Shown here: positions 2,905 to 42,879 of the stretch, one piece after another
How positions within the stretch are numbered: position 1 is the first letter of the stretch
How the letters are laid out: each line of letters begins with the position of its first letter
Source: an uncultured Pirellulaceae bacterium
Lineage (GTDB): Bacteria; Planctomycetota; Planctomycetia; Pirellulales; Pirellulaceae
Reading direction: 5' to 3'
DNA: 47,105 nucleotides
NCBI GenBank assembly: GCA_937929805.1
Contig: CALFUT010000063.1
Span: 1-47,105 of the forward strand
The notes under the pieces: generated by a model
The model's database searches: none
What the model was told of the DNA's origin: nothing
Seen by the model: only the letters and a program-made list of their open reading frames with translations
Program-made: the position numbers and the translations under genes

Positions 2905-4842
2905 TTAGCTTACCGAAATTCTAATTTCAACGCCGTCGGCTTGGTCTTTCAAATCAGCAGACACCACAACCGCTTCGGCACCGGGAACCATGTTGAAAAC
3001 ACGGTTTTTGTCGGTGTCACCAATCGACATGGGAACGTTTGATTTTACAACAACAGTTCCGCCCGGTTTGTCGATCTCGAGATGGTTGTCAGATACTTGC
3101 CGAACGTCTTCACCGGTGGGCGAAAGAATTGGAACCACCATGACGGCTTGGCTATCGCCGGCCACCTTGTCAGTTGCCTGCGCCTTCATGGTAACCGAGT
3201 CGTCATCAAACCGGTAGTGAATCGCGTGCGGGGCAACATCATCCGGAACTACATTTCGATCTTCGTCTTGCAACATCGCTTTGACGTCAAAAGCGATCTG
3301 CGTGTCATTTTCCTCGAATGTAACTTCCGCCTTTAAGTCATACAGGTTGGTGTACCAACGGCCATCCTTTCGGAGCTCAACCCGTGGTGTCAGCGCGATA
3401 TCTTCGCCGATCTGCGGCTGCATGTTAAGCGGTTCGACCATGATGTATCGAGCCATACTACCGGCCAACAACGTGCCGACTTTGTTGTGGTATAGCACTG
3501 ACATCGAACCGCCAGTCGGTTGCTGCAGGTGGTCGGCCTTTTTTGTTTTATAGATCGAATCGTAAGCCGAAACCGTTGCTCGCCACGGACCTTGCGCGGC
3601 CAACCACACATCCAATTCAGGGAAATGCTTGACCCCAACGGCGGTTTCCCTCGGCAATCGCGTGGCCGTATCAACTTTCGGCATGGAGTGCATTCTGTCT
3701 TGGACAAACGCCATCACTTTTGCGTGAGCAAAGGTGTGATGAATGCAAGGCTTGACGCCATGAGAAACGTAATGCGGCCCGCCATGCAACAGACCGTCGG
3801 CAGTGCAACGCTCTAATAGTTCTGCGTTCTTGATCGCCGCCGTTCCAAAGGCAGGGTTGTATCCCGCCAGCAAGCTAAATCCGGGCTGGCATCCGTCCGA
3901 AGTGCGACTGCCCCAGTAGCTCCATTTTTGCGAACGCGTGCCCCAACTATTATCCCACGCGCCATCTGGCAGCATGAATTCCAAATGGCCAGCCAAGGAT
4001 TTCATCGTTAAGTCCAGCAACTCCGTGTCGTTCGCGTCGATCGCATAAAGGACGACGCCGTTGAGTGACTCTTCGACGTTGTACCCAAGATCAACCGGCA
4101 AGAGTCCTCGGCCGCTGAGGTTATTGTTTGGTTTGCCTTCGCCCCACAACAGCGTATTGGGTTCAGTGAAGAACTCTTTGACGCGTTTTACGAACTGAAG
4201 CCCACGGTCAGTGTACTTTTGGTTGTTCAGCGTCTTCCCGAAAAGGTAGAACCCGTAGATGGCCGTCATGCCGTAGTTGAGGTTCGTAAAATCGATCGTC
4301 TTAAAGTCCTTATACAAATAGCCGCCGACCGCTCTGTCCAATCGCTCCATCCACGCTTTGCGCTGTTCTTGATCGAGCAGTTTTCCATGGTAGTGCAGTG
4401 CTTCAGCAAGCGCGATGGCACCGAAGATCGTAGTGCCTCGCCAAGCTTTGGGCCTGATATCGTTTCGCCAACTGCCGTCATCGTTGGTGACGTTAACGTT
4501 TGCCCATTCAAACACGTCGATTGCGGCTTGCAAGTATTTTTTATCGCCCGTGACGCTGGCCATGTGCATGAAAGGATACATCGCGTCCGAGCAGCGACCG
4601 TGGATGTGTTCGCAAGACGGGCAAGCAAGTGCACCGTGAAGGGCCGGATTGTCTGGCTGGTTGATCTGACGCCGGATCATTCCATCACACCAATCAGCCA
4701 GCAAACGTTTGGTCAATTGATCGAAGTAACTGCCTTTTGCGGTGTTGTCACCCACGGCATCAAACGCGGGTAGCGAATTCGGCGATAACGCCAATCCCGC
4801 AGCGCTGAATGTAAGTGAATTTAGAAATATTCTTCGATCCAT
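2905..4842 (-). CDS. Exported toroid plus beta-sandwich protein, candidate polysaccharide lyase or oligosaccharide dehydratase
   Basis: A 645-residue protein beginning at ATG 4842; an in-frame TTG 15 nt upstream is less likely. The N-terminus MDRRIFLNSLTFSAAG resembles a twin-arginine signal. Residues ~40-390 are helix-rich with repeated aromatic and Gly segments, as in (alpha/alpha) toroids. Residues ~410-645 are beta-rich and acidic. This order is that of heparinase II/chondroitin AC-type lyases and, from memory, of the Formosa ulvan-oligosaccharide dehydratase P29_PDnc. Notable residues are a Cys/His cluster CPSCEHIHGRC (74-84), a run CIHHTFAHAK near 366-375, and WDNSWGTRSQKWSYWGSR near 296-313. 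I do not recognise the family from an exact signature, so lyase or dehydratase activity is inferred from fold and context. It lies between the DUF1501 gene and a GH2 on the same strand, preceded by a 549-bp gap, so it probably has its own promoter. A noncatalytic or glycosidase role remains possible. Confidence 0.6.
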   Translation of the reverse strand: MDRRIFLNSLTFSAAGLALSPNSLPAFDAVGDNTAKGSYFDQLTKRLLADWCDGMIRRQINQPDNPALHGALACPSCEHIHGRCSDAMYPFMHMASVTGDKKYLQAAIDVFEWANVNVTNDDGSWRNDIRPKAWRGTTIFGAIALAEALHYHGKLLDQEQRKAWMERLDRAVGGYLYKDFKTIDFTNLNYGMTAIYGFYLFGKTLNNQKYTDRGLQFVKRVKEFFTEPNTLLWGEGKPNNNLSGRGLLPVDLGYNVEESLNGVVLYAIDANDTELLDLTMKSLAGHLEFMLPDGAWDNSWGTRSQKWSYWGSRTSDGCQPGFSLLAGYNPAFGTAAIKNAELLERCTADGLLHGGPHYVSHGVKPCIHHTFAHAKVMAFVQDRMHSMPKVDTATRLPRETAVGVKHFPELDVWLAAQGPWRATVSAYDSIYKTKKADHLQQPTGGSMSVLYHNKVGTLLAGSMARYIMVEPLNMQPQIGEDIALTPRVELRKDGRWYTNLYDLKAEVTFEENDTQIAFDVKAMLQDEDRNVVPDDVAPHAIHYRFDDDSVTMKAQATDKVAGDSQAVMVVPILSPTGEDVRQVSDNHLEIDKPGGTVVVKSNVPMSIGDTDKNRVFNMVPGAEAVVVSADLKDQADGVEIRISVS

Positions 4843-5391
4843 GGTTGGCTTTCCCAAAAACGGAAATTAACGGAAGGTTTGCGGCAGACATGTAACCGCC
4901 AATTAGTGTTTGCTGACCCGTTGTCAGTTACATTCGAAAGCTTTTCAACTTTTGCTGGCTACTCCGAAGCAAGTTCATGCGGTGCTTTCCCGGATGCATC
5001 AGAGAATCGTTTCCACGAATGCCGGTCTGACGCGGATAAAACCCGGTGACAGACAGGCTAGGAAAACGAACTGGCAACACGTTAGATGGTACGGTTTGAT
5101 TAAATTTGCTCAAGGTTCAAGCCCGGACATTTCGCAGGTCGGTAATAAGGCCCTAAAACACCGTCGTAACTGTGCAAGCTCGCAAGGCTCAGAAACATCT
5201 GATATTTTGATTTGTCTCAGAAGCAAGACCGAACTTCCGGCATAACAAGTGTTTGCTTGTGACGGCCGACTTCTTTGGTGAAGTATCTGCGCTAGTGCTT
5301 CATCCAGATTTAATTTTAGGGTTGCCGATACGTTACGTGTTTGCCGAGCTGAAACGAATGACCAACCCTAAAATCTAAGTTAGACCAAGCA
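4843..5391. other. Intergenic region with putative promoter and MITE-like repeat
   Basis: About 550 bases between the toroid-type protein and the DUF1501 gene. The left part must carry the promoter of the minus-strand gene starting at 4842, with GGGAAAG about 9 nt before its ATG. The right part is mostly the inverted-repeat element described separately. Small frames here, such as a plus-strand one at 4910-5245, have no recognisable domain, and I do not regard them as genes. Confidence 0.5.
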
Positions 5392-11865: not shown

Positions 11866-14349
11866 TTATTGGCCTGCAATCGGTATCGAAATTCTTGCTG
11901 ATTCGAGTCCATCGGAAACAGCTCCCACAACAACCTCGCCCGCTGAATGCTTGGCCTGAAGAATCATTAAGCATTTTCCGTTGAACGCTTTCCGCTGATT
12001 GATTTTTGTCGAGGCCAAATCCAACGGGTCGCCGTTATCGACTCCGATGTTATCGGCCGGGCCGGACAGGGTGAATTTGATCAAGTTGTCTGCGTCAGGA
12101 ACGAAGTTTCCGTCTTTGTCCAAAACGTTGACCTCCAGATGCACGCAACTTACACCGTCAGCCATGATGGTTTGCTTGTCAGCGATTATTTCAATCTTCG
12201 CGGCAGTAGACGCGGTCTTGATCACGTGTTGGGCCACCGTCTTTCCCTGCGATTTCGCGACGGCTCGTAACGTGCCCGATGTGTACGGTACGTCCCACGA
12301 CAAATTCATCTGGTCCGTGTTCGATTTCGCTCCGAGCGATTGGTCATTTAAGAACAATTCCACTTCGTCCGCGTTGGAATAGGCCCAAACTGGAATGACC
12401 GTTCCCTCTTTTCCAGCCCAGTTCCAATGAGGCAGGATGTGAACCATGGGCTCGTCGGTCCACTGGCTTTGGTAAAAGTAAAAATGGTCTTTAGGAAAAC
12501 CGCAGACGTCGATGATCCCAAAGTTAAAAAACCGCGACGGCCAGCCTTTGATGGCTTCGCCCAAGTAATCGAAACCAGTCCAGCGAAATTCGCCCGCGAC
12601 ATACGGAAGGCTGGCGGTCCGCCGCCAAGAATCTCTGGCACTGATCCGCACACTGGAATTGTCGTACGACGAGGAATAGAACGGCGAGACGTCAGGGAAA
12701 ACCTCTTCGTCGGTCAGGTCGGGCACTGAGATGCCTTGCTTGGGTGATCGCATTTCAGTTTTGGTTTTGTAAATTCCACGCGTCTGAAAAGAGTGAGGGA
12801 TTTCAGTTGCGATAAATTTTCGATTCGGATAGGTCGCTTTATCCTTCTCATAGAAAACGGAGCCGCCCCCGCCGTTGTATCCCGTGACGTCCAGCATCGA
12901 CGCGAACCCAGTGGGGTTGGCCAGATGAATATAGCAACAACCGCAAGTGATTGGGCGGGTTGAATCCAACTTGCGAACGATGTCCATCATCGGTTTCAGA
13001 CGCTTGGGCCCTTCCGGGTAGCACTGGTCAGGAATCTCGTTGCCAACGCTCCACAGAACGATACTGGGATGATTTCGATCACGAAGGATGACGTCGGTCA
13101 AATCACGTTCCCACCACTCATCAAAATGTTTGTGGTAACCGTGCTTCACTTTGCCTTGGTCTTTAAGCCTCTTGATCCACGGCCACGAAGCGATCCATTC
13201 GTCAAAGATTTCATCCATGACAAGGAACCCCATTTGATCGCACAGGTCGTAGAACTCAGGAGCCATTGGGTTATGGGCGGTCCGGATTGCGTTGCAGCCC
13301 ATTTGTTTCAATAACTTGAGCCGACGGCGCAGCACGTCTTCAGGCACGGCGGCACCGACGGGACCACCGTCATGATGGTTGTTCACGCCCTTGATCTTCA
13401 CATTTTTGCCGTTGAGCCAAAATCCGGTTTCGACTTCGAAACGAATATCGCGAATACCAAACGGAGTCTTCTGAACGTCAACCAGCCGATTTCCGACCAT
13501 CAGTTTGGTGACCAGCAAATACTGTTCGGGCGATTCGATGGACCAAAGCTGCGGATTCGGAACGTCAAACGAGTGGTGGACAATGGCGGATGCATCTTTC
13601 TCAATCCGCTGTTGCTGAGACTGCTGAGCGATCTTCTTCCCATTTGGATCCCAGAGTTCCGCGACGATGTCGACCGCGGCTTCTTCGGCTGAACCATTGT
13701 CGATGTTCGTTTCAACCTGCACCTGTGCGGAATCGGCAGTCACGTTCTTTGCTACGACGTAAGTTCCGTGCTGGGTCACCGAAACTTTGTTCTTTACGTT
13801 CAGCCAGACATGCCGATAAATCCCGCATCCGGTGTACCAGCGACTGCTGGGCTGTTCCGAATTGTCGGCGCGGACCGTGATGACGTTGGTGCCTTCTTCG
13901 TTCAGATGGTCCGTCAAATCGTAGGTGAACCCAACGTATCCATTGGGCCGTTTGCCAAGCAGATGGCCATTGATCCACACCTCACTATTGCTCATGACGC
14001 CATCGAACGTGATTTGAACGAGCTGGTCCTTCCAACTCGGCTCAAACGGGAACGTTTTTCTGTAATGACCGATGCCGCACGGATAAAACCCACCTTGCTT
14101 GCCGGAGGGATTGCTTTTCTCGATCGGACCTTCGATGCTCCAGTCGTGCGGAATCTTGACACTGCCCCATTCGGAATCATCAAACGCTGCTTGCGAGGCT
14201 TTCGGGAAGTCCCCGCGTTTAAAGCGCCAGCCAGAATCGAAACTTTGCTTTCGCGAGGAGAGAATCCTCGTTTGTTCGTCCGCTTGCCCGACTTGGATCA
14301 GAACGAGAATGGCGACAGCAGAAAAAAATGATACTAACGATCGGTTCAT
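11866..14349 (-). CDS. Glycoside hydrolase family 2 protein (beta-galactosidase-like)
   Basis: 827 residues with signal peptide (SLVSFFSAVAILVLIQVGQA). Domains in order are a GH2 jelly roll (~30-185; SEVWINGHLLGKRPNGY), an immunoglobulin-like domain (~190-300), a TIM barrel (~305-620), a DUF4982-like domain (~650-720; ADEVELFLNDQSLGA) and a C-terminal Ig-like domain (~725-820). The acid/base Glu438 is in VLWSVGNE and the probable nucleophile Glu516 is in KFIATE, so the site is intact, unlike the GH2 at the left edge. GH2 relatives of this layout are annotated as beta-galactosidases or beta-glucuronidases; sugar specificity cannot be assigned. The start codon overlaps the stop of the BNR_4 gene by four bases (ATGA at 14349-14346), which suggests translational coupling. 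It is the fourth gene of the run that starts with GH106. Confidence 0.95.
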   Translation of the reverse strand: MNRSLVSFFSAVAILVLIQVGQADEQTRILSSRKQSFDSGWRFKRGDFPKASQAAFDDSEWGSVKIPHDWSIEGPIEKSNPSGKQGGFYPCGIGHYRKTFPFEPSWKDQLVQITFDGVMSNSEVWINGHLLGKRPNGYVGFTYDLTDHLNEEGTNVITVRADNSEQPSSRWYTGCGIYRHVWLNVKNKVSVTQHGTYVVAKNVTADSAQVQVETNIDNGSAEEAAVDIVAELWDPNGKKIAQQSQQQRIEKDASAIVHHSFDVPNPQLWSIESPEQYLLVTKLMVGNRLVDVQKTPFGIRDIRFEVETGFWLNGKNVKIKGVNNHHDGGPVGAAVPEDVLRRRLKLLKQMGCNAIRTAHNPMAPEFYDLCDQMGFLVMDEIFDEWIASWPWIKRLKDQGKVKHGYHKHFDEWWERDLTDVILRDRNHPSIVLWSVGNEIPDQCYPEGPKRLKPMMDIVRKLDSTRPITCGCCYIHLANPTGFASMLDVTGYNGGGGSVFYEKDKATYPNRKFIATEIPHSFQTRGIYKTKTEMRSPKQGISVPDLTDEEVFPDVSPFYSSSYDNSSVRISARDSWRRTASLPYVAGEFRWTGFDYLGEAIKGWPSRFFNFGIIDVCGFPKDHFYFYQSQWTDEPMVHILPHWNWAGKEGTVIPVWAYSNADEVELFLNDQSLGAKSNTDQMNLSWDVPYTSGTLRAVAKSQGKTVAQHVIKTASTAAKIEIIADKQTIMADGVSCVHLEVNVLDKDGNFVPDADNLIKFTLSGPADNIGVDNGDPLDLASTKINQRKAFNGKCLMILQAKHSAGEVVVGAVSDGLESARISIPIAGQ

Positions 14350-15854
14350 TGTGTTCTCGATTCTGCTGAAGGTTGCTGCTTGCGGGGCAATTGCTGCAAT
14401 CTCTCGTGATCGACATCAACGAGTCGATAATCCAGCACATGAAGTGGAGAAGGAAATCCATCAACCGCTTCGTCCCGCTCGGTGCTGATTCTCTTTCTTG
14501 GTTCCTCCTGAACGTATACCGATAATACGTTTTCGCTTTGCCAACGTTCCAAGTCCACCAAGGGCTCGCCGCAAACGGATTGAGGCTTTGGAAGGCTAAG
14601 TTTATCCCATTGCCAATGGGTGTTCTCGCGATTTGGATGTCCCTTTGCGACACTCAGCCACTCCGTCTCATCCTCTCTTTCGTCTGCATAAACAAGGATA
14701 AGCGATCGATCACTTGAGCCGACTAGCTTAGGACGACTTCCTGTAAATGGCAGCACTTGTTGACCCCACTCACCCGCGCTAGTTCGCCAATAATGGTGGT
14801 ATCTTGCTTCACGCGTGCCTGTCAAATTGCGTCTCATGACAATATGAACACTTCCATCGGCGAAAGCGAAATGAGTATTCGAATTGCTCAGACCCGAATA
14901 GGAATTGATCGGCGCGACGACTAGGCCCGGCGAGCCGAGATGGATCCCATTCGCGCCTGTTTTTCCTATCGGCTGGCCGTCGGAGTTCATCCACGTGCGG
15001 CCGTGATCATCACTATAGGCGTAACATAAATCGTGTTGGTTGACCGGATGTGTTTTCTCGAAACGGTCTCGCCAAATCCAAGATGCATGAAGCCGATTGC
15101 CAGCGTACGACAACGAATTCATGTAAGGGCAACGGTAACGACTGGTTCGGCCCCGAAAGCGGTAAGTGCCCACGTCCCGTGCGATGAACCTTCCCAGCCC
15201 CGGTGTCCAGTCGTGTTTATCACCATCGTATTCTTCGATCATCCCGTCGCCATTGCCCGATGTCACCGCCCGATAGTAGAGCATCAAATTGCCGTTCGGG
15301 CCCGGAACGAACCTTGGATAAGTAACCTGTGCGTCAGTTGTGATTGAGCCAAGTGAGTGAGTCACCGGACCGAATAGCTCGGCCGTCCACTCGACTGAGT
15401 CCGGATCATGAGCAGCTGCCAACTTTGAGACGCGATAATTCAACTGCGACGCATGATGGTCGAAGGCCATGTGGATCGTGCCATCCTTTGCACAGATCCC
15501 AATGACCGACGTGTTGTGCGAGTCATTCGTTTCAAACTTGTGGTCCTTGAACTGAATCACCTGCCACGAACCAGTTGGCAGTTTTCGACGACCGATGCAA
15601 AGCCGACGTTCAGCGTCAAAATACGTCACGTATTGATAGCCGCCATAAGTCGTTAGCGGCGTTTGCTGATGCGTACGCCCATTGACCGTGGTAGACCATC
15701 GTGCAGCCGGTCCCGATGCAAAGACCAGCGCCTGTTCAGCGACGGTGGTTTTCTGAACGAGTTCGATCTCGTTCGCTTGAGCATGATTGGGAACAAGTGT
15801 TGCCCGAACAATCAGGACGATGCCGATCGCGAAGCCTGTCGATCTATATCGCAT
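14346..15854 (-). CDS. BNR_4 beta-propeller protein, candidate ulvan lyase (PL24/PL25-like)
   Basis: 502 residues from ATG 15854, chosen because MRYRSTGFAIGIVLIVRA forms a signal peptide; a TTG 45 nt upstream is less likely. The repeated blade pattern fits the BNR_4 propeller (GGYQYVTYFDAERRLCIGRR; DGTIHMAFDHH; NGNLMLYYR; NRLHASWIWRDR; GSVHIVMRR). His113 lies in SHNTS and His133/134 in FDHH, 20-21 residues apart; Tyr179 (VTYPR) follows at +66 and Arg195 (YYR) at +82. From memory, the catalytic set of PL25 ulvan lyase PLSV_3936 is His123, His143, Tyr188 and Arg204 (+20, +65, +81), so the spacing agrees closely. Those enzymes cut the rhamnose-3-sulfate to uronate bond by beta-elimination. The fit is inferred, not aligned. 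The stop overlaps the GH2 start by four bases, and the gene lies 83 bp after DUF1080-GH78. It could instead be a noncatalytic BNR_4 protein. Confidence 0.75.
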   Translation of the reverse strand: MRYRSTGFAIGIVLIVRATLVPNHAQANEIELVQKTTVAEQALVFASGPAARWSTTVNGRTHQQTPLTTYGGYQYVTYFDAERRLCIGRRKLPTGSWQVIQFKDHKFETNDSHNTSVIGICAKDGTIHMAFDHHASQLNYRVSKLAAAHDPDSVEWTAELFGPVTHSLGSITTDAQVTYPRFVPGPNGNLMLYYRAVTSGNGDGMIEEYDGDKHDWTPGLGRFIARDVGTYRFRGRTSRYRCPYMNSLSYAGNRLHASWIWRDRFEKTHPVNQHDLCYAYSDDHGRTWMNSDGQPIGKTGANGIHLGSPGLVVAPINSYSGLSNSNTHFAFADGSVHIVMRRNLTGTREARYHHYWRTSAGEWGQQVLPFTGSRPKLVGSSDRSLILVYADEREDETEWLSVAKGHPNRENTHWQWDKLSLPKPQSVCGEPLVDLERWQSENVLSVYVQEEPRKRISTERDEAVDGFPSPLHVLDYRLVDVDHERLQQLPRKQQPSAESRTQ

Positions 15855-15937
15855 GGTAAAGTCACTAAAGAATTTGAATTTTGACTGATGGCAAACCAAC
15901 AGCCATCATTTTTTTGGCTGTCGGCTATACGCCAAAA

Positions 15938-18421
15938 CTATTTCGTTTCGATGGTGACTTTACCGCTGACTTCGTTGTTCAAAATTAGGCGATCGCCCAC
16001 CTTGGTTGCATCGGCGGGCTTTCCGTCAACCAAAACTTCACATGCGTCCTCAACAGCGGGCAATTCGACTTTCGCGGTCACGCCGTCGGGCAGTTCAAGC
16101 GAGATTTTGAACGCGTCTTTCCTCGTCCAGTCAACCGAAATCGGGCCGCGTGTCGTTGGGACTTTTCCACGAGCAAACTCAAGATTGGCCAAGCACGGGC
16201 GAATGACAGCGGTTTCCCACCCCGGCGACGTTGACTGAACTCCTAGCACAAACCGAGGCAAAAGGTTTGCCGGTGCGGCTCCCCAAGCATGATTCCAGTC
16301 TTGGTTTGGCTTGTACTTCATGCCCCAAGCTTCCCAGCTGATGGTGGTCCCACTGTTGACCATGTGTTTCCAGCTGCGATCGCCATCGGCAAGGATCAGA
16401 TCGATCGCCTTCTTATCACAGCCGTTGTTGAAGAGCCCTTCAATAAAATACTGGGCAGCGTAAACGCTGCACTGCATGTTTTTTTCTTGCAGCCATTCGA
16501 TCACACTGGCCTTTTTGTCTTCCGGAATCAAACCGAAGGCCAGCGGGAAAAAGTTTGCATGGATACTGCTGTGGTCTGTGCCGACGCCATCACGATAGAT
16601 CCCGGCCGTTTCGTCAAACAGGGTTTCTTGAAAGGCATCACGGGCCAGTTTTACTCGGGCAGTGAACGCTGCTGCATCCTCGTCCTTGCCAACCGCATTC
16701 GCCATTTCCGCCATTTGCTCGAGTGCAGCGATGTGGAATGCATTGACGACGGTATTAATTTCAGTGAAGACAAAATTGTCTCGTTCCTTCTTCGGCCAGT
16801 CGACAATGTCATGGCGAGTCCGATCCAGTTCCGCGCTTCGAACCAACCCGTCGTCACCCGCACGGTGGAGCAAAGTTTTTGACTTAAGCGATTCGTAGCG
16901 ATGCTTCAGCCATTCAACGTCGCCGGAATACATCCATTCGGCGTGAGCCATGAAAATCATGTGGGGTGACCACTCGGTCGGCCAAGTTCCATTCTCCATT
17001 AACCAATCGAACGACCGAGCCGCCATCAGAACGTTGTCGTCAGTCGTGTAATGGCTAAGCTGATTCAGATAAGCGTCCGCTTCGTAGGGAATTCGCTCGC
17101 GATCGCCGTCCACGTAAACACCCGCAAACGTCGTCGCCTTAATGCTGTATTTGCAAAGGTCCCAGATGCGGTTAAGCGTCTCATCGGAGCACTCGAATGC
17201 GCTCGCGTCCTCATTCCATGTCGAAGAGAAAGCGGCACGGCGTCGTACCAGGTCGTAGTCGAAGTCGGGCTCGAAACCTTCCAATTCAATCCAGCGAAAA
17301 GGGATGATCGACCCCCATGATTCGGGTGTCAAGACTGCGGGTGGGTTGGCGTTCATCAGGCCAGCCTGTTGAACATTTCGATCGTCCACAGGCGCGGGCA
17401 CAACCCAATTCCCTTTCTGCTGCCCGACGCGAACTGGAGTCGCTCCGTAACGAACCGTGCCCGGAGGTTTCCGGTCGATACGCTCGCCCTTTAATTTTTC
17501 GCCAAAATGAACTGTGGCTGTTCCGGTCCCTTTGGCTACCGGCATCACAACGTTCCCGAACGCTACCTTCCCAAAATCAATCAGCGTGACGTCGTCGTTG
17601 ATCCTTTTGATCGAGACCGGTGCCTGCTCGGTCAGCGACACATGCTGCTCTGCCGGAATCTGGGGCAACTCTTTGATGAACAAGTTTCGAAATCGATACG
17701 TTTGGCCTTTCTCGCCGTGGTGCTGAATACCAATGAAACCACTTGCGTCCATGGCATCGCGAAACCGAGCGGTTTGAACGCCGTTGACTTCGATCGTGAT
17801 CACGTCCTTGATACAAGTGACCACGTAACGATTCCAGCCGTTGCGATCGAGTGCGTTGGCAACCGCCGGTTGCTTAAAAAAAGCTTTGGATTCTTGTTCG
17901 TGTTTCAGGAACTGATCGGTCGAGCGATTCTTGGTGCTGGGCCAGATCCATTTGCGTCGGCCCTCGTCGTACAACCCACCGGACCAGCGGCGATCGGAAC
18001 CGTCGCATTCCGCTTGGTAACCGTAGACTTTCTTCTTTGGAGCGGATTCATCAACATGGCAACGAAACATGACTCCCGAGTTCGCCGGTCCATCGGGAAG
18101 ATGAATGTCGACGCTTAGCCGGAAGTCGGAATACGTCTTTTCGGTGACAAGGAAAAACTTCTTGTTGGCCAGCAGATGAATTTCGCCATCCACGACTTTC
18201 GCTTCGCCAAAAGAGTAAGGATTTCGCCAGCCAGACAAGTCTTGACCATTGAACAGAGGTTGGTAGCCGCGAGAGACCAGCGATTCGAACCCAACGCGAG
18301 CTTCGTCGGCCAAAACGGGCTTTTCTATCCGCGAAGTTTTGGACTCTTGCGCCGAGGCGATTGAAGAGGTCAAGACGATCAGAACAAGCGATTGGATCAG
18401 TTGGATCTTCATGGAAACCAT
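15938..18421 (-). CDS. DUF1080 domain fused to GH78-type alpha-L-rhamnosidase
   Basis: 827 residues with signal peptide MKIQLIQSLVLIVLTSSIASA; the start may be ATG 18421 or 18412, and a TTG further upstream is less likely. Residues ~45-250 are a DUF1080 domain (3-keto-disaccharide hydrolase family, concanavalin-like; PLFNGQDLSGWRN, NSGVMFRC, TYRFRNLFIKEL). The rest is GH78-like: a beta-domain (~275-390), a six-hairpin barrel and a C-terminal beta-sandwich. The acidic motif VDGDRERIPYEAD (~434-446) aligns with the GH78 D-x-x-x-R-D-E-R motif and keeps the general acid Glu; ISWEAWG supplies the likely base Glu. The usual Trp after the motif is Tyr. DUF1080 may bind or process the glycan. The gene lies 72 bp after GH106 and 83 bp before the BNR_4 gene, in one direction. 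Whether both domains are active is unknown. Confidence 0.92.
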   Translation of the reverse strand: MVSMKIQLIQSLVLIVLTSSIASAQESKTSRIEKPVLADEARVGFESLVSRGYQPLFNGQDLSGWRNPYSFGEAKVVDGEIHLLANKKFFLVTEKTYSDFRLSVDIHLPDGPANSGVMFRCHVDESAPKKKVYGYQAECDGSDRRWSGGLYDEGRRKWIWPSTKNRSTDQFLKHEQESKAFFKQPAVANALDRNGWNRYVVTCIKDVITIEVNGVQTARFRDAMDASGFIGIQHHGEKGQTYRFRNLFIKELPQIPAEQHVSLTEQAPVSIKRINDDVTLIDFGKVAFGNVVMPVAKGTGTATVHFGEKLKGERIDRKPPGTVRYGATPVRVGQQKGNWVVPAPVDDRNVQQAGLMNANPPAVLTPESWGSIIPFRWIELEGFEPDFDYDLVRRRAAFSSTWNEDASAFECSDETLNRIWDLCKYSIKATTFAGVYVDGDRERIPYEADAYLNQLSHYTTDDNVLMAARSFDWLMENGTWPTEWSPHMIFMAHAEWMYSGDVEWLKHRYESLKSKTLLHRAGDDGLVRSAELDRTRHDIVDWPKKERDNFVFTEINTVVNAFHIAALEQMAEMANAVGKDEDAAAFTARVKLARDAFQETLFDETAGIYRDGVGTDHSSIHANFFPLAFGLIPEDKKASVIEWLQEKNMQCSVYAAQYFIEGLFNNGCDKKAIDLILADGDRSWKHMVNSGTTISWEAWGMKYKPNQDWNHAWGAAPANLLPRFVLGVQSTSPGWETAVIRPCLANLEFARGKVPTTRGPISVDWTRKDAFKISLELPDGVTAKVELPAVEDACEVLVDGKPADATKVGDRLILNNEVSGKVTIETK

Positions 18422-18432
18422 GTTGGAGTTGC

Positions 18433-18447
18433 GTGTCAATTTGACAC
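18433..18447. promoter_or_regulatory. 15-bp palindrome GTGTCAATTTGACAC before DUF1080-GH78
   Basis: A perfect palindrome around a single central base, centred at 18440, 12 to 26 bases before ATG 18421. It could be a regulator operator overlapping the ribosome-binding region, or chance. It shares the outer TGTC/GACA with the rha operators but has a different centre, so it need not be bound by the same protein. Confidence 0.35.
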
Positions 18448-18493
18448 CGGGTTTGATAGCCAAGGTTTGATCTTGGTCATTTTATTTCTTGTT

Positions 18494-21400
18494 TCAACGT
18501 TCGCTACCTATCACTTTTGTGCGAACGTATGGACGGACGATGACTGGCCCCAGCAGGCCAGACGATTGTAGCTTTGAATCTTGTTTCCAGTGTTGGTACG
18601 CAGCGAACGTAACACGTTCGGACGGGCGGTCAGATCGCTGCAAAAGCCATTTCGGCCATTCCTTGATCGTCCGACCTTTACGCACAAAGTCTTTAGTCAG
18701 AGCCTCGTCGCCAATCAGTCTGTTGGCCCAAAGGTTGGTTACTTTTACCTGAAGCTCATTGATGCCCTCATGCACGAAGCCGTCCAATTTTGTTCTAAAC
18801 GGAGCCTTCCACAATATCCCAAGGTTCTCTCCGTTGACAATAACCTCTGCGATAACGCTCACATGGCCCAAGTCCAATTCTAATGAAACATTGGGCTGAA
18901 CGAGGCTGTCGGGTAAATCGAAATGGTTTAAGTAAGTTGCCGTGCCAGAAAAGTGCTTTATTACCGAGTCATTCGACTCCGTCCATGAATTCAATTCATC
19001 AAAAGTGGCATCCGTTGATGCGCCTTGTGGCGAGGGAAAGGTCAGCTTCCACGAACCTGCCGGTTGAACCGGTGAGGGTACGGATTCCACAGGGATCACT
19101 TTTTTGGCACCCGAAGCAGTTTGGCAGGTCAGCGTGCCGGCCCGCGGAGTAACCCACGTCGTTTCACCATTTTTTGCGACAAGTCTCGCACGAGGAAAGC
19201 GTTGTCCCAAATTCAGACGGTGCCCGTAGCTGATTTTCTGTTTTTCGAGTTTGCCATTAATCGAGTACTCGATTCGAAGCTGATTGTTTTGGTTGGGCTC
19301 GCTTGAAGTAGTCGCCAATTGGTCATCAACCGGAATTACAACATTGCCATCCGCCACCAATCCCGCAATCTTTTCCGTGATATTTGTGGATCTGCCGGCC
19401 GATGGAACACCGACTACGTTTTCATCAAATTTTCCAAAGACGGCACCTAAGATTTTCAGATCTCCTTCAGCACCGGAACGCAACGTGATGTCCTCTTGTT
19501 CCATCACACTGGTTTCGTGAACGGTTTCACCGGTCTTGTATCGGATACGAACTTCTTTCTTGTAACCGGGCGCCGGATCACAATTAAAAAGACCTCGGGA
19601 AGCTTTGGCTTGCAGTTGGTTGTCTTTCACGCGATCGGCAAGAACCTTGGTGACATCGACAAGACCATCAGGCAGAAACGTACCGTATTCCGCGTTAATA
19701 ATCTCTAAATTTGGCTGCTGCTGAAGCTTTCGTGGCTGGAGTTCCGTCGAGCTTGCCACAACATGTTCCGTGTTGGAAACTGTTTTTTGAAACACAACAA
19801 ATACCGACCCGTCGGGCGGTAGCTGAACCGAAACGGTAGTCGTCCCGTCTTCATTGCTTTTCCATTCACCAGCGTCGGCGATCTCGCCAGTTTCTGCGTT
19901 CCAGAGCTCTGGCTGTTTTCCGGTAACACGAAAACGACAACGCTCGCGGCGTTCTTCCTTGCGATGGTTTGCAATAAAGTAGATATCTGCTTCGTCCGTG
20001 CGGCGATGGATGAATTCGAGTTCCTTGCCAGACCCGTTTTCTACCTTGAAGTCGGGTGGTAACGACGCTTCCCGAAGGAAATCAACGATCGATTGATCTT
20101 TGATTAATTCGTCAGTCCAAAGCTTATCGGCCAACAAGGAGACTGTTTTATCGCAGTCGGGATAGCCTTCTAGGCTGGGAGATTTTTCAGGACGCGGCCC
20201 CAGAATCGTCGCGCCTGAATTGACTAAGGCGTTTAGCTTTTGAATCGTTTCGGGCTTCATCCAACGAGTTTTCGGCAATACCAATGCCCGATAGGTTGCG
20301 CCGGCCTGTGTGCGAATCGAGCCACCATCGACTGACAACGATTGCAACTTATTGGCTCCAATCAAATCGTAGTCGTACCCCATCGCCTTGATCGCTGGAA
20401 TTTGGCGAGCGGTGTTGGGCGACGCTTCGCCGGCAAACACTAAAACGTCAGCAACGGTCTGCCCCTTCTGAAGTAGCGATTGCCCACGCGCGACATAGTC
20501 CAGAAATGCTGTGCTTTGATTCCACCATGTGTTCAGCCGATTGAATTCAAGTCCGTGATAGCTCAAGGTCAGCCCGGGCGCGACGTCCCATGGTTGATGA
20601 ACGTAACTGTGGAAGATGAAACGATTGATTCCCTGTGCCCATGCTCGATCGCCAATCGATTTGATGGTGGCCGGATGTTCGACCCATCCGCCAAGCCCCG
20701 TAAATGCTTCGGCTCCGACGATGGATTGGTCATTGAGCTTCGCGATAGACGAAACAAATTTTGGCGAGTCGAAGAACGCGATCTCGCCGCTCCAAAATTC
20801 ACACATCACGACATCGCCCGCCGCGCCGACTTGCATGTTGTCGAAAGGACCCCAGTAGGGTTCCACGGAAAGTTTCATTCCGTGTTCGTGGCAACGCTTG
20901 CGAAAATGAGCGTAGTAGTTTTCTGCGATCAGGTCACCAATTGTGCGTCGAAAATCCCACAGGAAGCGTTCTGAAATTTCTCCACTTTCGACGTAGTAGC
21001 CGGCCAGAGTCGGCAGATAGCTGGTGCAGGTGTAGCCACGCAGACGATTGAATTCTTTGTCAAAACCGGGCGTCCAGTTGGTCGAGCCAACCTCGTAACT
21101 GTCGATGACGCAGTTGTTTACTACCGAACCAACATGCTGTCCAAGCTGCTTGAGGATGGGCGCAATGCCGCCAGCCCAAAAAACATCGACTGCCTCTTTG
21201 CTCATCTTGTCACATTCCAAACCCGCACCGCCAACCGGAGCTGGGCGGTTTCGCTGACCTTTGGCAGTGTGGCCAAGCCGCAGGATAATCCATTGGCCCG
21301 CGGGAGCGTCCCATTCGATGCTTCCATCCGAGCCGAGCTTTGCAGTCAAGTCGATGATGTCCGACTTCTTGATGATCGCCGCTGCCGGAATCTCTTTTGC

Positions 21401-22105
21401 GTCTGGCTCCAAGTGATTTCGGATTCGATCTGAAAGGGATTTGTAGTCCAACCCGTCGATGCGCCGATCGATTTTCGGTTTAGGAAACGCAAGGACGGCA
21501 ATGTCTCGGTAGTAATTCAACCGAATGTCCGGTTTGGGTAGCTTTGCCTTGAACGGTTTGCCGCCTTCGTGAATCACTTCGCTGCATACAACCGTTTGCA
21601 TGCTGTGCTCGGGCGTCACCCACGGTCCGCCGCTAGAAGACCAGCCCGGACCGTTGTGAAATCCAAGCTCAAGCCCCAATCGTTTCGCTTCCGAGGCAGA
21701 AAACTCAAACAGTTCCAGCCATTGCGGACTTAGATACTCTGCAGGACCAAGCGGATCATTGAGACTGACGTTGAAAAGCTGAACCTCTTGAATCCCCACC
21801 GCTTTCATGGCTTCCAGATCGGCCGTGATTCCCTCGCGTGTGATGTTGCCATTGATCCAGTGCCACCATGTTCTGGCTTTCGCAGCCGGTGGCGGATTCT
21901 TGAATCCGGCGTCAAGCGAGTCGTCCGCGTAAGCCGACGTTCCGGATAGAAGCAGCAAGATGCTCGCCAACGCTTTTAACGTGCCGGAATTGAACCTGCA
22001 TCGAAAAGTGTTCGCGACCGCGCCCGCGCGAGCGTTAGCAAGAGCAGAATCAGCAACAAGTGAAACACTTGCCGCGAGAATCGTCTGCAAAACACGTTTC
22101 AGCAT
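18494..22105 (-). CDS. GH106-type alpha-L-rhamnosidase
   Basis: 1203 residues from ATG 22105; a GTG at 22162 extends the frame by 19 residues but removes the signal from the N-terminus. The first hydrophobic stretch (VLQTILAASVSLVADSALANA) is followed by a second (LKALASILLLLSGTSAYADD) before the catalytic part, which is unusual. The hallmark KARTWWHWINGNITREGIT, then ITADLEAMKAVGIQEVQLFNV, fits the Glyco_hydro_106 family, whose members remove alpha-L-rhamnose from pectin and algal glycans. FGFHNGPGWSSSGGPWVTPEHSMQ-like segments follow. A C-terminal galactose-binding jelly roll (~1080-1190) contains NHFDLPDSLVQPNVSLELDL and VIVNGENLGILWKAPFR. Length agrees with the family. As the first gene of the minus-strand run, it is divergent from the CotH/lamin-tail gene. 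Sugar and linkage cannot be fixed from sequence. Confidence 0.93.
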   Translation of the reverse strand: MLKRVLQTILAASVSLVADSALANARAGAVANTFRCRFNSGTLKALASILLLLSGTSAYADDSLDAGFKNPPPAAKARTWWHWINGNITREGITADLEAMKAVGIQEVQLFNVSLNDPLGPAEYLSPQWLELFEFSASEAKRLGLELGFHNGPGWSSSGGPWVTPEHSMQTVVCSEVIHEGGKPFKAKLPKPDIRLNYYRDIAVLAFPKPKIDRRIDGLDYKSLSDRIRNHLEPDAKEIPAAAIIKKSDIIDLTAKLGSDGSIEWDAPAGQWIILRLGHTAKGQRNRPAPVGGAGLECDKMSKEAVDVFWAGGIAPILKQLGQHVGSVVNNCVIDSYEVGSTNWTPGFDKEFNRLRGYTCTSYLPTLAGYYVESGEISERFLWDFRRTIGDLIAENYYAHFRKRCHEHGMKLSVEPYWGPFDNMQVGAAGDVVMCEFWSGEIAFFDSPKFVSSIAKLNDQSIVGAEAFTGLGGWVEHPATIKSIGDRAWAQGINRFIFHSYVHQPWDVAPGLTLSYHGLEFNRLNTWWNQSTAFLDYVARGQSLLQKGQTVADVLVFAGEASPNTARQIPAIKAMGYDYDLIGANKLQSLSVDGGSIRTQAGATYRALVLPKTRWMKPETIQKLNALVNSGATILGPRPEKSPSLEGYPDCDKTVSLLADKLWTDELIKDQSIVDFLREASLPPDFKVENGSGKELEFIHRRTDEADIYFIANHRKEERRERCRFRVTGKQPELWNAETGEIADAGEWKSNEDGTTTVSVQLPPDGSVFVVFQKTVSNTEHVVASSTELQPRKLQQQPNLEIINAEYGTFLPDGLVDVTKVLADRVKDNQLQAKASRGLFNCDPAPGYKKEVRIRYKTGETVHETSVMEQEDITLRSGAEGDLKILGAVFGKFDENVVGVPSAGRSTNITEKIAGLVADGNVVIPVDDQLATTSSEPNQNNQLRIEYSINGKLEKQKISYGHRLNLGQRFPRARLVAKNGETTWVTPRAGTLTCQTASGAKKVIPVESVPSPVQPAGSWKLTFPSPQGASTDATFDELNSWTESNDSVIKHFSGTATYLNHFDLPDSLVQPNVSLELDLGHVSVIAEVIVNGENLGILWKAPFRTKLDGFVHEGINELQVKVTNLWANRLIGDEALTKDFVRKGRTIKEWPKWLLQRSDRPSERVTFAAYQHWKQDSKLQSSGLLGPVIVRPYVRTKVIGSER

Positions 22106-22642
22106 CGAAATGTGTCCAACCAATGGAGTAAAAAACTGGGCCCGATTGTTCAATTGCGACACTTATAAACCAGTGGGGGATTCCCGGAACGAAACTGTAG
22201 GTGCTTGATCGCACCCGTGAAGTGAACCAACGGGTGCGATCATAGCTAGGCCTTTAAGCGGATGCCAAGGGAGCAACAGTCCTTGCGGATTGAATCCCGT
22301 GCTGGCCTGTCGCTCAAAGCCAAATTGGATCGGCATTGCAAACAACAAAAGCACTGCTCCAAGAATACGGTTGAGCAGTTGGAAACAATTTTGAACTGGC
22401 TTGGTTTCGAAAAAAGCTCCTCGATTGAACAATTCATCTCAATTGACAACTGCGGTTGATTACAGCTTGTTGCCTGCTGCCCGCACGGAGCATCCTTCTG
22501 GTGCGGGTGACGCAAATGGACAACTAAATTTTCGCCTTGTGTTCGCGCGAACTGATTTAATAGATTTAAGCGGTTCTCGCGGCTGAGGTTGTCATTAATA
22601 GCCTTTCGCGACTCTCCACATCTCTCCTTGACGGACTTCTCA
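22106..22642. other. Divergent intergenic region between GH106 and lamin-tail genes
   Basis: About 540 bases with promoters expected in both directions. Two hairpins are visible: a perfect 13-bp stem at 22206-22242 and a 7-bp stem CCCGCAC/GTGCGGG with a 14-base loop at 22480-22507. Small overlapping frames on both strands show no family likeness. The TGTCGT-N3-ACGACA operator of the rha locus was not found here. Confidence 0.45.
22206..22242. repeat. Perfect 13-bp inverted repeat with 11-base loop
   Basis: The arm TGATCGCACCCGT (22206-22218) pairs fully with ACGGGTGCGATCA (22230-22242), and the loop is GAAGTGAACCA. It lies 100 to 137 bases before the GH106 ATG, inside the divergent region, with no T run on either side. 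A structured 5' leader, an attenuator-like element or a REP-type repeat are all possible. Confidence 0.55.
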
Positions 22643-27211: not shown

Positions 27212-29818
27212 TCATTGCTTTAACTCGTAGTGATACGTCCCCGCCACGACGGTTTCTGTTTCCCGATCATTCGGGAACTCGATTGTCGCGGTGGTGTTGG
27301 GAGGGACGACAACGTCCAGCACCAGTTTCCCGCTTTCCTTTTTCCAGCCGCTGGACGCTAGTCCGTAAGCGGTTTGAAGTTCAGCCTTTGCCCAGTCGAG
27401 CTGTTCCGCGATCAGCGGCCGAACGTAAAAGTGTTTATAGCCCGGCTTCTTCGGATCGGGTGATAATCCCGCGATACGCTCGTACATCCACTGCCCCACC
27501 GCACCATAAGCGTAGTGGTTGAGTGAATTCATGTTGGCCCCGTGGAAGCCATCCTCCTTCGAATAGCTGTTCCATCGTTCCCACACGGTCGTGGCACCTT
27601 GGTTGATCGAGTAAAACCACGACGGATAGGTTTCCTTGAACAAAAGCGAAAGCGCCAGATCGCTTCGCCCCATTTTGTCCAGCACGCTAACAATGTATGG
27701 CGTACCTAAAAAGCCGGTTCGCAAGTGGCCATCCGCTTCGTCTATCAAACGGATCAGATTCACCGTTGCCTTTTCGTGCATGGATTTGGGAATCAGATTG
27801 AACTCAATCGCCAACAGGTAGGTGGTTTGCGTTTCAGGCGCGTTTTGGATTTTGCCCTCAGCGTCGAAGTAATGTTTCGCAAACGAGTCAGCAATCGACT
27901 TCGCTTCGTCCGAATACTTTTTGGCATCCTCCTCTTTTCCAAGCACACGAGCGGTGTCAGAAAGAATTTGGCAGCTGCGGCCGCAGAACGCCAACGCAAG
28001 CAGAGGATGAGGCGTATCGCCGCGGTTGTCTTCGGCATACGGCTGAAGCCAGTCACCAAAGGCCCTGATTTTTGGTATCAGCCCGTCAACCGTTTGACGT
28101 CGGTACCAACCGACCAGTCGCTCCATCATCTCATAGTTGTCGGATAGCGCCTCGACGTCACCCGCGCGAACATAAACTTCCCACGGAACGAATGTCGCCG
28201 CATCCATCCAGCCGGGGCTTCCGCCGGCTCCTAGCACATCCGGAATCACGTGCGGGATTTTGCCGTTGTCAGATTGATCGTCTCGCATCGAGCCCAGCCA
28301 GCTTTTCCAAAACGCGTTACATTCGTAGTTGAACATGGACGTGGGGATGAAAGCTTGAGCATCACCTGTCCAGCCCATCCGTTCGTCTCGTTGAGGGCAA
28401 TCGGTAGGGATGTCCAAGAAGTTGCCTCGCTGTCCCCAGACAATGTTGCTTTGGAGCTGATTCAGTTTGGCGTGAGAGGAGTCGAACGTGCCGATCTGAG
28501 CTAAATCAGAATACAGCACAATCCCCGTGACCCAATCTTTGTCGGGCTTAACTCCTGCTGGCAAACCGGAAAGCTCGACAAACTGAAAGCCGTGGAACGT
28601 GAATTTTGGTTCCCATTCGATGGTGCCAGTCTCGGCCGCCGTGTATGAGTCGGTCGATTTCGCACCGCGATAGTTCTTGGTGTGCATCGTGCCGTCCGAG
28701 TTCAACATTTCCGCGAATCGAACCGTGGTTGTTTTACCCTTTTCGGTTGGAATGTTCAGCTTGGCCCAACCGACGATGTTCTGCCCCAAATCAAAAACAA
28801 AATGACCGGGCTGAGGCTCGGTGATTTCTTTGGCGGGAACCGTTTGCTTCTGTTTGACGGTTGGAAATGGCTTGGGAACAATTCGAGCCTTGCCGAGATC
28901 TTCATTCACGACAACCGGTTTCCAGTTCGTCCACTCTTTTCTCGCGTCGAAATGCTCGCCATCGTAGATGCTTGATGAAACGATCGGACCATCGAAGGTC
29001 GCTTCCCAGTTTTCGTCAGACACGATGGTTTTCTTGCTGCCATCGTTGTATTCGATCTCCAGCTGCAGTAAGAGTTCGGGGTACGGTCCAAAGTAGTGGC
29101 GTTCGCCCTTAAAGCCGAATCGCCCGGCATACCATCCGAAGCCAAGCATGGCATCGAACGAATTCTCGCCTTCTTGCAGCAAGTCGGTGACGTCGTAGGT
29201 CAACGAGTCCAGACGATTTTTGTAGGAGGTGAATCCGTTGGCAAAATGGTCTTCAGCCACTTTCTGTCCATTCAGGCTGACTTCGAAAACGCCGCGAGCG
29301 GCCACAAATAGCCGTGCAGTTTTAATACTGTCTGCCGCTTCAAACTGGCGGCGAAACCGAGTCACATGTTCGATCTCTGAAGAACCTTCGTCGGCGGGAC
29401 GAATCCACTTCCCAGACCAGTCATCCTTCGACATCAAGCCCAGCTCAAACGTTGCAGATTCGCTCCAGCCGGCTTCCTTCCCGTCCTCATCCTTAACATT
29501 CACGCGCCAATTGAGTCGCTGCCTTGATTGAAGTGGTTCACCCTTGTACGGAACAAACACGGATTGATCTGACTCGACCCATCCGCTGTCCCAGATCACC
29601 GACTCGTTGTTGACTTCAATACGATATGCGGTTTGCGCTCGTGTGCCGTCAGGCAATTTCCACGAGAATGTCGGCGTCACGTCGTGGAAGCCAAGCGGAT
29701 TTACGAACCCTTCGCCTACCGTCAATGAATTGGCCGGACCTTCAGCCTGAGTCAAGCCGCAAGGAATCCAAGCCAACAAAACGACTGCGAGAAACTGCTT
29801 CTTATTGAAGATCATCAT
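27212..29818 (-). CDS. GH78 alpha-L-rhamnosidase
   Basis: 868 residues from ATG 29818, 7 bases behind AAGGATTTG; the signal peptide FLAVVLLAWIPCGLTQA predicts export. The family order is clear: an N-terminal domain with NPLGFHDVTPTFSWKL (~40-55), a beta-sandwich (ARGVFEVSLNGQKV), a domain with FDLGQNIVGWAKL (~342-353), a six-hairpin barrel and a C-terminal beta domain. TDCPQRDERMGWTGD (~472-486) carries the conserved Asp and general acid Glu; TTVWERWNSY carries the likely base Glu. Residues agree with characterised GH78 enzymes, which cleave terminal alpha-L-rhamnose. The active site is fully canonical, unlike the DUF1080-linked homologue. It follows rhaB by 191 bp in the same direction and lies next to the rhamnose operon, so induction with rhamnose is likely. 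Linkage specificity cannot be read. Confidence 0.96.
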   Translation of the reverse strand: MMIFNKKQFLAVVLLAWIPCGLTQAEGPANSLTVGEGFVNPLGFHDVTPTFSWKLPDGTRAQTAYRIEVNNESVIWDSGWVESDQSVFVPYKGEPLQSRQRLNWRVNVKDEDGKEAGWSESATFELGLMSKDDWSGKWIRPADEGSSEIEHVTRFRRQFEAADSIKTARLFVAARGVFEVSLNGQKVAEDHFANGFTSYKNRLDSLTYDVTDLLQEGENSFDAMLGFGWYAGRFGFKGERHYFGPYPELLLQLEIEYNDGSKKTIVSDENWEATFDGPIVSSSIYDGEHFDARKEWTNWKPVVVNEDLGKARIVPKPFPTVKQKQTVPAKEITEPQPGHFVFDLGQNIVGWAKLNIPTEKGKTTTVRFAEMLNSDGTMHTKNYRGAKSTDSYTAAETGTIEWEPKFTFHGFQFVELSGLPAGVKPDKDWVTGIVLYSDLAQIGTFDSSHAKLNQLQSNIVWGQRGNFLDIPTDCPQRDERMGWTGDAQAFIPTSMFNYECNAFWKSWLGSMRDDQSDNGKIPHVIPDVLGAGGSPGWMDAATFVPWEVYVRAGDVEALSDNYEMMERLVGWYRRQTVDGLIPKIRAFGDWLQPYAEDNRGDTPHPLLALAFCGRSCQILSDTARVLGKEEDAKKYSDEAKSIADSFAKHYFDAEGKIQNAPETQTTYLLAIEFNLIPKSMHEKATVNLIRLIDEADGHLRTGFLGTPYIVSVLDKMGRSDLALSLLFKETYPSWFYSINQGATTVWERWNSYSKEDGFHGANMNSLNHYAYGAVGQWMYERIAGLSPDPKKPGYKHFYVRPLIAEQLDWAKAELQTAYGLASSGWKKESGKLVLDVVVPPNTTATIEFPNDRETETVVAGTYHYELKQ

Positions 29819-30009
29819 CAAATCCTTTTAACTAGCGGATGGTTCAAATTTTTCGTGGATGTCGCCGCACATCCAACGTGGTTGCCTCTTGGTGCGAATC
29901 GATGTCAAACGCACGACGCGAAACGATTGGAGCATGATTTTGAAATGGCCACTCGTGACATCCCATGGTCTCCTTCTTCTGCCGCGCCATTTCCTTCTTG
30001 GTCAACTAA

Positions 30010-31518: not shown

Positions 31519-31666
31519 GCTACTCAAATTGAATCAGTAAGAAGTAGAGAGCCGATCAACAACATAACGCCTGAGCACGGATCACACACGGTTGGATTGA
31601 AGCTTCTCTACGATATTGGACCGTTCATCTTACTGATGCGAGTCGCCGCTGAGCATCGCAAACGAT

Positions 31667-31812: not shown

Positions 31813-31916
31813 ACAGATAAACCGTTTTCGTCGCTAAGTTTTGCGTTAAACTGTGTCCTCGACAAACGAGTTCTGCTTTGAATTTTCCGAACAACAACAC
31901 CGGAATCCTATCCGCA

Positions 31917-42399: not shown

Positions 42400-42879
42400 A
42401 TCCTCGCCCAGAAGCAAATCAATTAGCGTTCGTCGCCCGAACATTGATAAAGTGTATCTCAATTCAACGACAGTCGTTTCGTGCGAAACAAAAAATCATG
42501 GTGGATTTGCGACATAAGTCGCTCGTTCGAATGGTGGCCCAACTAATTAGACCTTGCTCGCAATTCTTTCCCTGTGAAATCGGTTCTGCATCTCGTTGCT
42601 TACCGTGTCATGATCGAAAGACTCCGTTCTTTGTTCTGTTCACGACTGACGTGTCGCCAACACGGTACCTGATTGGCAAATTTGGCAAGGGTTGATTCTG
42701 TCAGAATTTTCTGAGCACGAAGGTCAGGTGTATCGTAAAAGGTTGTCCTGCCAACAACGCTCCACGGGCAAGGTTTTGGCCGGCGTTGGGATCCCGATCA
42801 TTGGCGTTTTGAAACGGTTGATTTGGTCGGGGATTTGAAAACGATTTACAATCGCTTGGCAAACTTGCTGCTTAGAGTT
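42400..42879. other. Intergenic region between sulfatase and DUF4345-like gene
   Basis: 480 bases. It must contain the promoter of the minus-strand sulfatase. A short ACGACAGTCGT inverted pair near 42469 recalls the rha operator bases but in reversed order and without a spacer, so it is not the same site. Small plus-strand frames such as 42444-42695 have no domain likeness. Confidence 0.4.

Follow-up and report, generated by a model that had tools for sequence, protein, structure and literature searches.

The window analysed here, 47,105 nucleotides in length, is the complete contig CALFUT010000063.1 (C63) from the 4.2-Mb genome (95.64 % complete) of an uncultured Pirellulaceae bacterium; it contains DUF1501-type genes, which are typical of planctomycetes. 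On its minus strand it carries the gene of a BNR_4 protein, termed P0001, whose frame runs from an ATG at position 15854 to a stop codon at 14346–14348 and codes for 502 amino acids; an alternative TTG start at 15899 would extend the product to 517 amino acids. Pfam BNR_4 covers residues 73–366 (222 bits), and a propeller fold is predicted, so that the BNR_4 propeller claimed in an earlier interpretation of this DNA (the sequence-only reading) holds. A hydrophobic N-terminal helix, formed by residues 2–19 in the predicted model, is consistent with a signal peptide, and P0001 is presumably secreted. Comparisons with characterized polysaccharide lyases suggest, at a probability of about 0.72, that P0001 is a PL42-type lyase, albeit a rather distinct one, and not a member of PL24 or PL25.

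Affiliation to the PL24/PL25 ulvan lyases had been proposed from the spacing of H113, H133/H134, Y179 and R195. These residues are indeed located at the claimed positions, and alignment with FoRham1, the L-rhamnose-α-1,4-D-glucuronate lyase (PL42) of Fusarium oxysporum (PDB 7ESK–7ESN), indicates H134 rather than H133 as the second catalytic histidine, giving offsets from H113 of +21, +66 and +82. These values are close to the spacing in the PL25 lyase PLSV_3936 (residues 123, 143, 188 and 204); however, the catalytic His85, His105, Tyr150 and Arg166 of FoRham1 show offsets (+20, +65, +81) identical to those of PLSV_3936 (PMC8377490). The spacing thus cannot separate PL25 from PL42 and was rejected as a family marker, which corrects a tempting annotation: the values cited in favour of PL25 apply exactly to the PL42 enzyme. 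When the pattern is loosened to H-x(19-20)-H-x(43-45)-Y-x(15)-R, the 25,274 amino acids of the six-frame window segments of ≥100 residues contain a single match, in P0001. The loosened pattern also arises in 354 of 20,000 shuffles of P0001 itself (1.8 %), so that the spacing alone is weak evidence and gains its meaning from homology. A scan of the genome contigs with the pattern yielded one relative. In an alignment of 38 rows, every row has the first His and the Tyr; one row lacks the second His, and two lack the Arg, namely those of G083 (Met) and G038 (Leu). The PL42-like propellers of these two genomes (L010:1216-2580 and L014:1264-2643), in which the neutralizing Arg is replaced by Met or Leu, also lack the rhamnose Arg, and are possibly altered or non-catalytic.

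Among solved structures, FoRham1 is the closest to P0001 by each measure. Sequence scores were 160.8 bits for FoRham1, 101 bits for BT3686 and 28.6 bits for PL24; profile searches gave 317–322, 248–252 and 87–99, respectively; and comparison of the predicted propeller with known folds ranked FoRham1 (48.7) before the former GH145 proteins (40–44), PL24 (33–35) and PL25 (30.7). The PL42 residue set Asp83/His85/His105, Tyr150, Arg166, Tyr202 and Arg220 is completely kept in P0001 (D111, H113, H134, Y179, R195, Y244 and R262), Ser170 of FoRham1 aligns with Ser199, and three of the five residues of its rhamnose subsite are identical (Asn275 = N324, Arg331 = R374, Glu381 = E430). P0001 differs from FoRham1 by a longer loop before Tyr244, by four clade-conserved cysteines, and by its bacterial rhamnosidase/sulfatase context. 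The own genome contains only two BNR_4 genes, with FoRham1 nearest to both, which counts against a full ulvan pathway. The second one (L029:9443-11905) is PL42-like and its catalytic residues are intact; behind them, dockerin-like repeats can be made out by eye. Genes related to it occur in several of the clusters that surround P0001 orthologs.

The genes surrounding P0001 are compiled in Table 1. Two genes are located upstream of the lyase gene on the same strand, separated by gaps of 30–83 bases, namely the DUF1080/GH78-type gene and the GH106 gene, whereas the ATG of the GH2 gene overlaps the lyase stop codon as ATGA; these four genes look like one operon. A promoter/terminator scan of the window remained at chance level (7 versus 7.0 and 15 versus 13.4 in shuffles). 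Of the context described in the sequence-only reading, rhamnosidases, GH2 and rhamnose catabolism were confirmed, but the sulfatases, said to be near, lie 23–27 kb off and are not adjacent. One of them, encoded at 41002–42462, has the signature CAVSR rather than C/S-x-P/A-S/A-R. A further GH2-like stretch (297–2591, minus strand) near the left contig end shares 27 % identity with the GH2 enzyme encoded at 11866, and a 1435-residue lamin-tail/CotH/chitobiase-type protein is encoded on the opposite strand between the rhamnosidase genes (22589–26896, plus strand).

Table 1. P0001 and neighbouring genes in the window
Feature	Position	Strand	Remarks
PL42-type BNR_4 lyase P0001 (probable)	14346..15854	-	N-terminal hydrophobic helix and propeller; residues of catalytic/+1 subsite and rhamnose pocket
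GH2 enzyme	11866..14349	-	closest NCBIfam models GalB/GalA beta-galactosidases, under their cut-offs
3-keto-disaccharide hydrolase domain (DUF1080) + GH78-type rhamnosidase domain	15938..18463	-	homologue 76 % identical in G444
GH106 alpha-L-rhamnosidase	18494..22162	-	64 % homologue in G446 cluster
GH78 alpha-L-rhamnosidase	27212..29821	-	
FGGY kinase, probable rhamnulokinase	30010..31527	-	rhamnulokinase name suggested by context
AraC-type regulator (putative)	31878..32888	+	from reading the sequence
L-rhamnose isomerase RhaA	33230..34528	+	
Permease, distantly cytosine permease-like	34613..36004	+	next to RhaA homologue in G025 and G446 (84 and 77 % identical)
Bifunctional rhamnulose-1-phosphate aldolase/dehydrogenase (RhaD-type)	36333..38576	+	
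Sulfatase, CAPSR signature	39002..40840	+	best solved relatives are S1_8 sulfatases
Sulfatase	41002..42462	-	70-77 % homologues beside 650-aa protein in G038, G437 and G444
650-aa protein	2905..4857	-	no family match at 1e-3; co-occurs with lyase clade

Orthologs of P0001 with 59–67 % identity were found in five genomes (G025, G444, G446, G265 and G262), which together with the own protein form a clade with a support of 100/100, in agreement with the earlier idea of a distinct subfamily. Within the genus, two of 28 genomes have the clade lyase; it is also present in at least five of 397 genomes of a class sample (the own genome included in both cases) and in at least one of 392 genomes of a phylum sample, i.e., the own genome. 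The class and phylum counts are lower bounds, since scoring was limited to three candidates per genome. Relatives with 29–45 % identity are more widely spread. Four cysteines (C86, C121, C242 and C277 of P0001) are kept in all members of the clade and perhaps form two disulfides. All six members also have a His (His62 of P0001) at the position of Tyr26 of FoRham1, compared to 16 % of the other rows counted. This clade-wide replacement leaves room for a modified rhamnose and, together with the replacement of Gln276 by Ser325, suggests that the sugar at the -1 subsite may be modified.

The loci of the clade were inspected using labelled proteins as tblastn queries. GH78, GH106, DUF1080-GH78, RhaA, the permease, and BNR_4 genes of the type of the own paralogue recur in some of the clusters, though not in each. 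In three of the six genomes (G025, G446 and G265), a sulfatase termed SULF_g1 (70–71 % identical to the G025 copy) is encoded directly upstream of the lyase. G262 has a mere fragment match at the lyase and a 62 % copy elsewhere in the cluster; the type is absent from the 40 kb read on the lyase contig of G444 (best 26 %), and the own copy (74 %) is located on contig C5, outside the window. SULF_g1 shares 70 % identity over 442 amino acids with RS20460 of pAlt76, the ulvan plasmid of Alteromonas sp. 76-1, where RS20460 adjoins the PL25 gene; its best solved match is the arylsulfatase 7AN1 (249 bits) and not an ulvan sulfatase. A second type, SULF_g2, is S1_7-like, scoring 450 bits against 6HHM, the ulvan endo-2-sulfo-xylose sulfatase P18_S1_7 (PMC9096561), and adjoins a GH10 gene in G025 and G446 and also on contig C5 (61 % and 71 % identity). 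GH10 was found in all six clade genomes. Contig C5 (63888-98598, L081/L082) comprises eleven sulfatase matches within 35 kb, with S1_7-like and SULF_g1-like ones beside GH10, and is possibly the partner locus of the window. Subfamily S1_8, to which the CAPSR sulfatase is related, includes the ulvan sulfatase P32_S1_8 (PMC9096561), but also BpS1_8, which desulfates arabinogalactan proteins (AGPs) and stems from an organism that likewise uses a GH145 lyase (PMC8406133).

FoRham1 acts by syn β-elimination, with one His as base and acid, two His bridged by Asp, and neutralization of the carboxylate by Arg, Tyr and His (PMC8377490, among others). Mapping of this mechanism by alignment and overall fold match, rather than by distances, suggests that P0001 is quite probably a secreted PL42-type lyase which would cleave L-rhamnose-α-1,4-D-glucuronate bonds by β-elimination on the anterior face of a seven-bladed propeller. 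Arg195, Tyr179 and protonated His134 would neutralize the glucuronate carboxylate, while His113, linked to His134 by Asp111, would abstract the C5 proton and give one back to the leaving rhamnose oxygen. The uronate would be held by Tyr244, Ser199 and Arg262, and the terminal rhamnose by Asn324, Arg374 and Glu430. Because this rhamnose pocket is retained, the enzyme most likely acts in exo mode, with rhamnose set free and an unsaturated uronate left behind. It might act beside the GH106/GH78 rhamnosidases and the sulfatases on a sulfated glycan containing rhamnose, glucuronate and probably xylose; the released rhamnose could be channelled to RhaA, the FGGY kinase and the RhaD-type enzyme, all encoded nearby. 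The simplest reading is that of a rhamnose harvest, in which rhamnosidases and an exo lyase feed rhamnose catabolism. That the substrate is an ulvan-like glycan has, in our estimate, about an even chance.

Several findings weigh against the assignment of P0001 to PL42 or against the proposed role. Its identity to FoRham1 is only about 31 %, and two residues of the rhamnose pocket differ (Tyr26 to His62 and Gln276 to Ser325). The score against the NCBIfam model of BT3686 is 148.7 with a cut-off of 700; P0001 is therefore not a BT3686 equivalog. In the tree, 13 of 37 inner branches are open, and so is the deep branch order: the three PL42 references fail to group as a single clade, the place of the P0001 clade among the PL42-like rows is not settled, and the PL25 row is on a very long branch. 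The evidence from ulvan sulfatases mostly comes from relatives or from contig C5, with adjacency to the lyase in only three of the six clade loci. Neither GH88/105 over the cut-off nor KduI was detected in the own genome (at its 95.64 % completeness, the assembly may have missed a gene), leaving the unsaturated uronate without a known route. Ulvan as a substrate, in keeping with the ulvan-degrading cluster suggested before, is plausible mainly from the gene clusters of the relatives. GH88/105 is present in four of ten genomes or records (G444, G051, G219 and pAlt76); none was found in the own genome, G025, G446, G265, G262 and G630. A ‘heparin lyase I family’ protein of pAlt76, presumably PL28, retrieved 22-bit fragments from two of six genomes when used as query, and nothing from the own genome.

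With respect to the family, the possibility that P0001 is an endo-acting PL24 or PL25 ulvan lyase, cleaving at 3-sulfated rhamnose linked to glucuronate (Rha3S-GlcA), is suggested by the similar fold and His-His-Asp/Tyr/Arg apparatus, the spacing near that of PLSV_3936, and the context of rhamnose and sulfatase genes, but we consider it very unlikely. The correspondence of His123/His143/Tyr188/Arg204 of PL25 to H113/H134/Y179/R195 is common to PL42 and thus not diagnostic. A zinc site and Asn122/Lys125 are further features of PL25 (PMC13193363); His208 (the only zinc ligand position scored), Asn122 and Lys125 of PLSV_3936 correspond to Ser199, Ser112 and Thr115 in P0001. In contrast, RS20455 of pAlt76 keeps all eleven PLSV_3936 positions checked, which identifies it, on the basis of its sequence, as PL25. 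No sequence match of P0001 was obtained to the PL25 structures 5UAM and 5UAS at E ≤10, or to RS20455 in BLASTP at E ≤1. Similarity to the endo-acting PL24 lyases LOR_107 and Uly1 is weak, the 28.6 bits of P0001 comparing with 423 bits for RS20300 of pAlt76; in all five PL24-type rows, of which three are from pAlt76 and two belong to a Catenovulum plasmid, Glu takes the place of Asp83 of FoRham1 (Asp111 in P0001), and equivalents of Asn275 and Arg331 (Asn324 and Arg374) are lacking. Since sequence scores, order of folds and subsite residues all favour PL42, membership in PL24/PL25 was rejected. It is also most improbable that P0001 works as a GH145-like α-rhamnosidase through the His site on the posterior face, or serves as a binding propeller without catalytic activity, even though its best NCBIfam model is named after the α-L-rhamnosidase BT3686. 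The former GH145 proteins BT3686, BACINT_00347 and BACCELL_00856, now in PL42, are encoded in AGP loci and reach ≤101 bits with P0001 (phmmer). The posterior His48 of GH145 corresponds to Tyr34 of FoRham1 (PMC8377490) and to Tyr70 of P0001; four clade members have Tyr, two have Phe and none has His at this position. As the anterior residue set is complete, a posterior-site rhamnosidase was rejected as well.

If P0001 is a PL42-type lyase, the question of its substrate arises. It is possible, though we regard it as the less probable case, that the enzyme cuts sulfated Rha-GlcA such as the Rha3S-GlcA of ulvan directly, in exo or endo mode, and without prior desulfation. The clade-wide His62, the location of some orthologs adjacent to sulfatases and GH10, the PL42-type genes on pAlt76, and the activity of PL42 anterior sites towards the probably sulfated Rha-GlcA of wine AGP are in line with such a changed specificity. 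However, Arg374, Asn324 and Glu430 are kept; in FoRham1, their equivalents either bind O2/O3 of the unsulfated rhamnose or position the contacts made to these oxygens. Moreover, the sulfatases of the clusters could strip the sulfate first. Uncapping of AGPs carrying Rha-GlcA caps like those of gum arabic is the proven activity of FoRham1, the closest characterized enzyme (PMC8377490), and the coupled GH2 gene is nearest to β-galactosidase models; nevertheless, this role appears improbable for P0001, considering that the clusters hold S1_7-like and other sulfatases, GH10 and several rhamnosidases, and that no match to GH43 (PF04616) was found in the own genome, although all five clade relatives have some.

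A parallel to P0001 is RS20240 of pAlt76, which is likewise PL42-like, with FoRham1 as best solved match (111–117 bits). Its neighbours are a sulfatase and a large ‘glycosyl hydrolase’ (which served as query for GH106), with rhamnosidase and rhamnose catabolism genes close by, but it has Asn at the position of Arg374 and Arg at that of Tyr26. The plasmid holds a second PL42/GH145-type BNR_4 protein besides PL24 and PL25, RS20465, which is nearest to BT3686-type chains (the two genes are at L035:23784-25307 and L040:2918-4342). The paper on pAlt76 speaks of PL24/PL25 lyases (PMC6431674), and ‘GH145’ is absent from its main text. PL42 has been named in ‘K. aquadivae’ EP7 (PMC12603096) and listed for a mat-genome group including Planctomycetota (PMC12590107); planctomycete PL42 genes are hence already in print by annotation. 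The literature searched, with most subscription papers outside reach, contained no assayed planctomycete PL42 enzyme, and no PL42 enzyme of any source assayed on ulvan. Other potential substrates of GH145/PL42 lyase sites have been stated to remain to be identified (PMC8406133), a remark on which a coherent PL42-type clade tied to sulfatases rather than gum arabic bears. P0001 would define one step of the turnover of sulfated rhamnans by sulfatase-rich bacteria, and may help its owner to use sulfated, rhamnose-rich algal sugars as food.

The 650-residue protein encoded at the left of the window had no Pfam or NCBIfam match at 1e-3, apart from weak sub-threshold ones; by eye, it bears an RR-type leader. 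It was found in six of 397 genomes of the class sample, taken to be the same draw as that used for the lyase, i.e., in four of the five holders of the clade lyase and in two of the 392 others (Fisher p 7e-8, or 4e-6 without the own genome; both values are optimistic because the genomes are related). In G038, G437 and G444 it adjoins the homologue of the second window sulfatase, and in G038 and G437 a distant PL42-like gene is located 2–13 kb away. Its structural model is poor (predicted local distance difference test score 56) and consists of a helical part followed by a β-sheet part, a general layout shared with the PL40 lyase Uly1040 (PMC12915356). Foldseek matched this model to GAGases, dermatan sulfate epimerase, PL33, and alginate and hyaluronate lyases (template modelling score about 0.2-0.4), which suggests, as a lead only, a toroid plus β-sheet build as in several polysaccharide lyases. 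A rather unlikely but conceivable scenario is a probably planctomycete route to ulvan-like glycans, in which PL42-type propellers replace PL24/PL25 and act together with an S1_7-like xylose-2-sulfatase and GH10, and in which the 650-residue protein, perhaps a toroid plus β-sheet lyase or hydrolase, either takes over from the GH105 that was not found or contributes a further lyase activity.

A BNR-4 protein of the P0001 kind is also encoded on a haloarchaeal plasmid (Halocatena marina, L036:11926-14655); genes for a sulfatase and for GH78 are located in its vicinity, and one for a xylanase follows at a greater distance.

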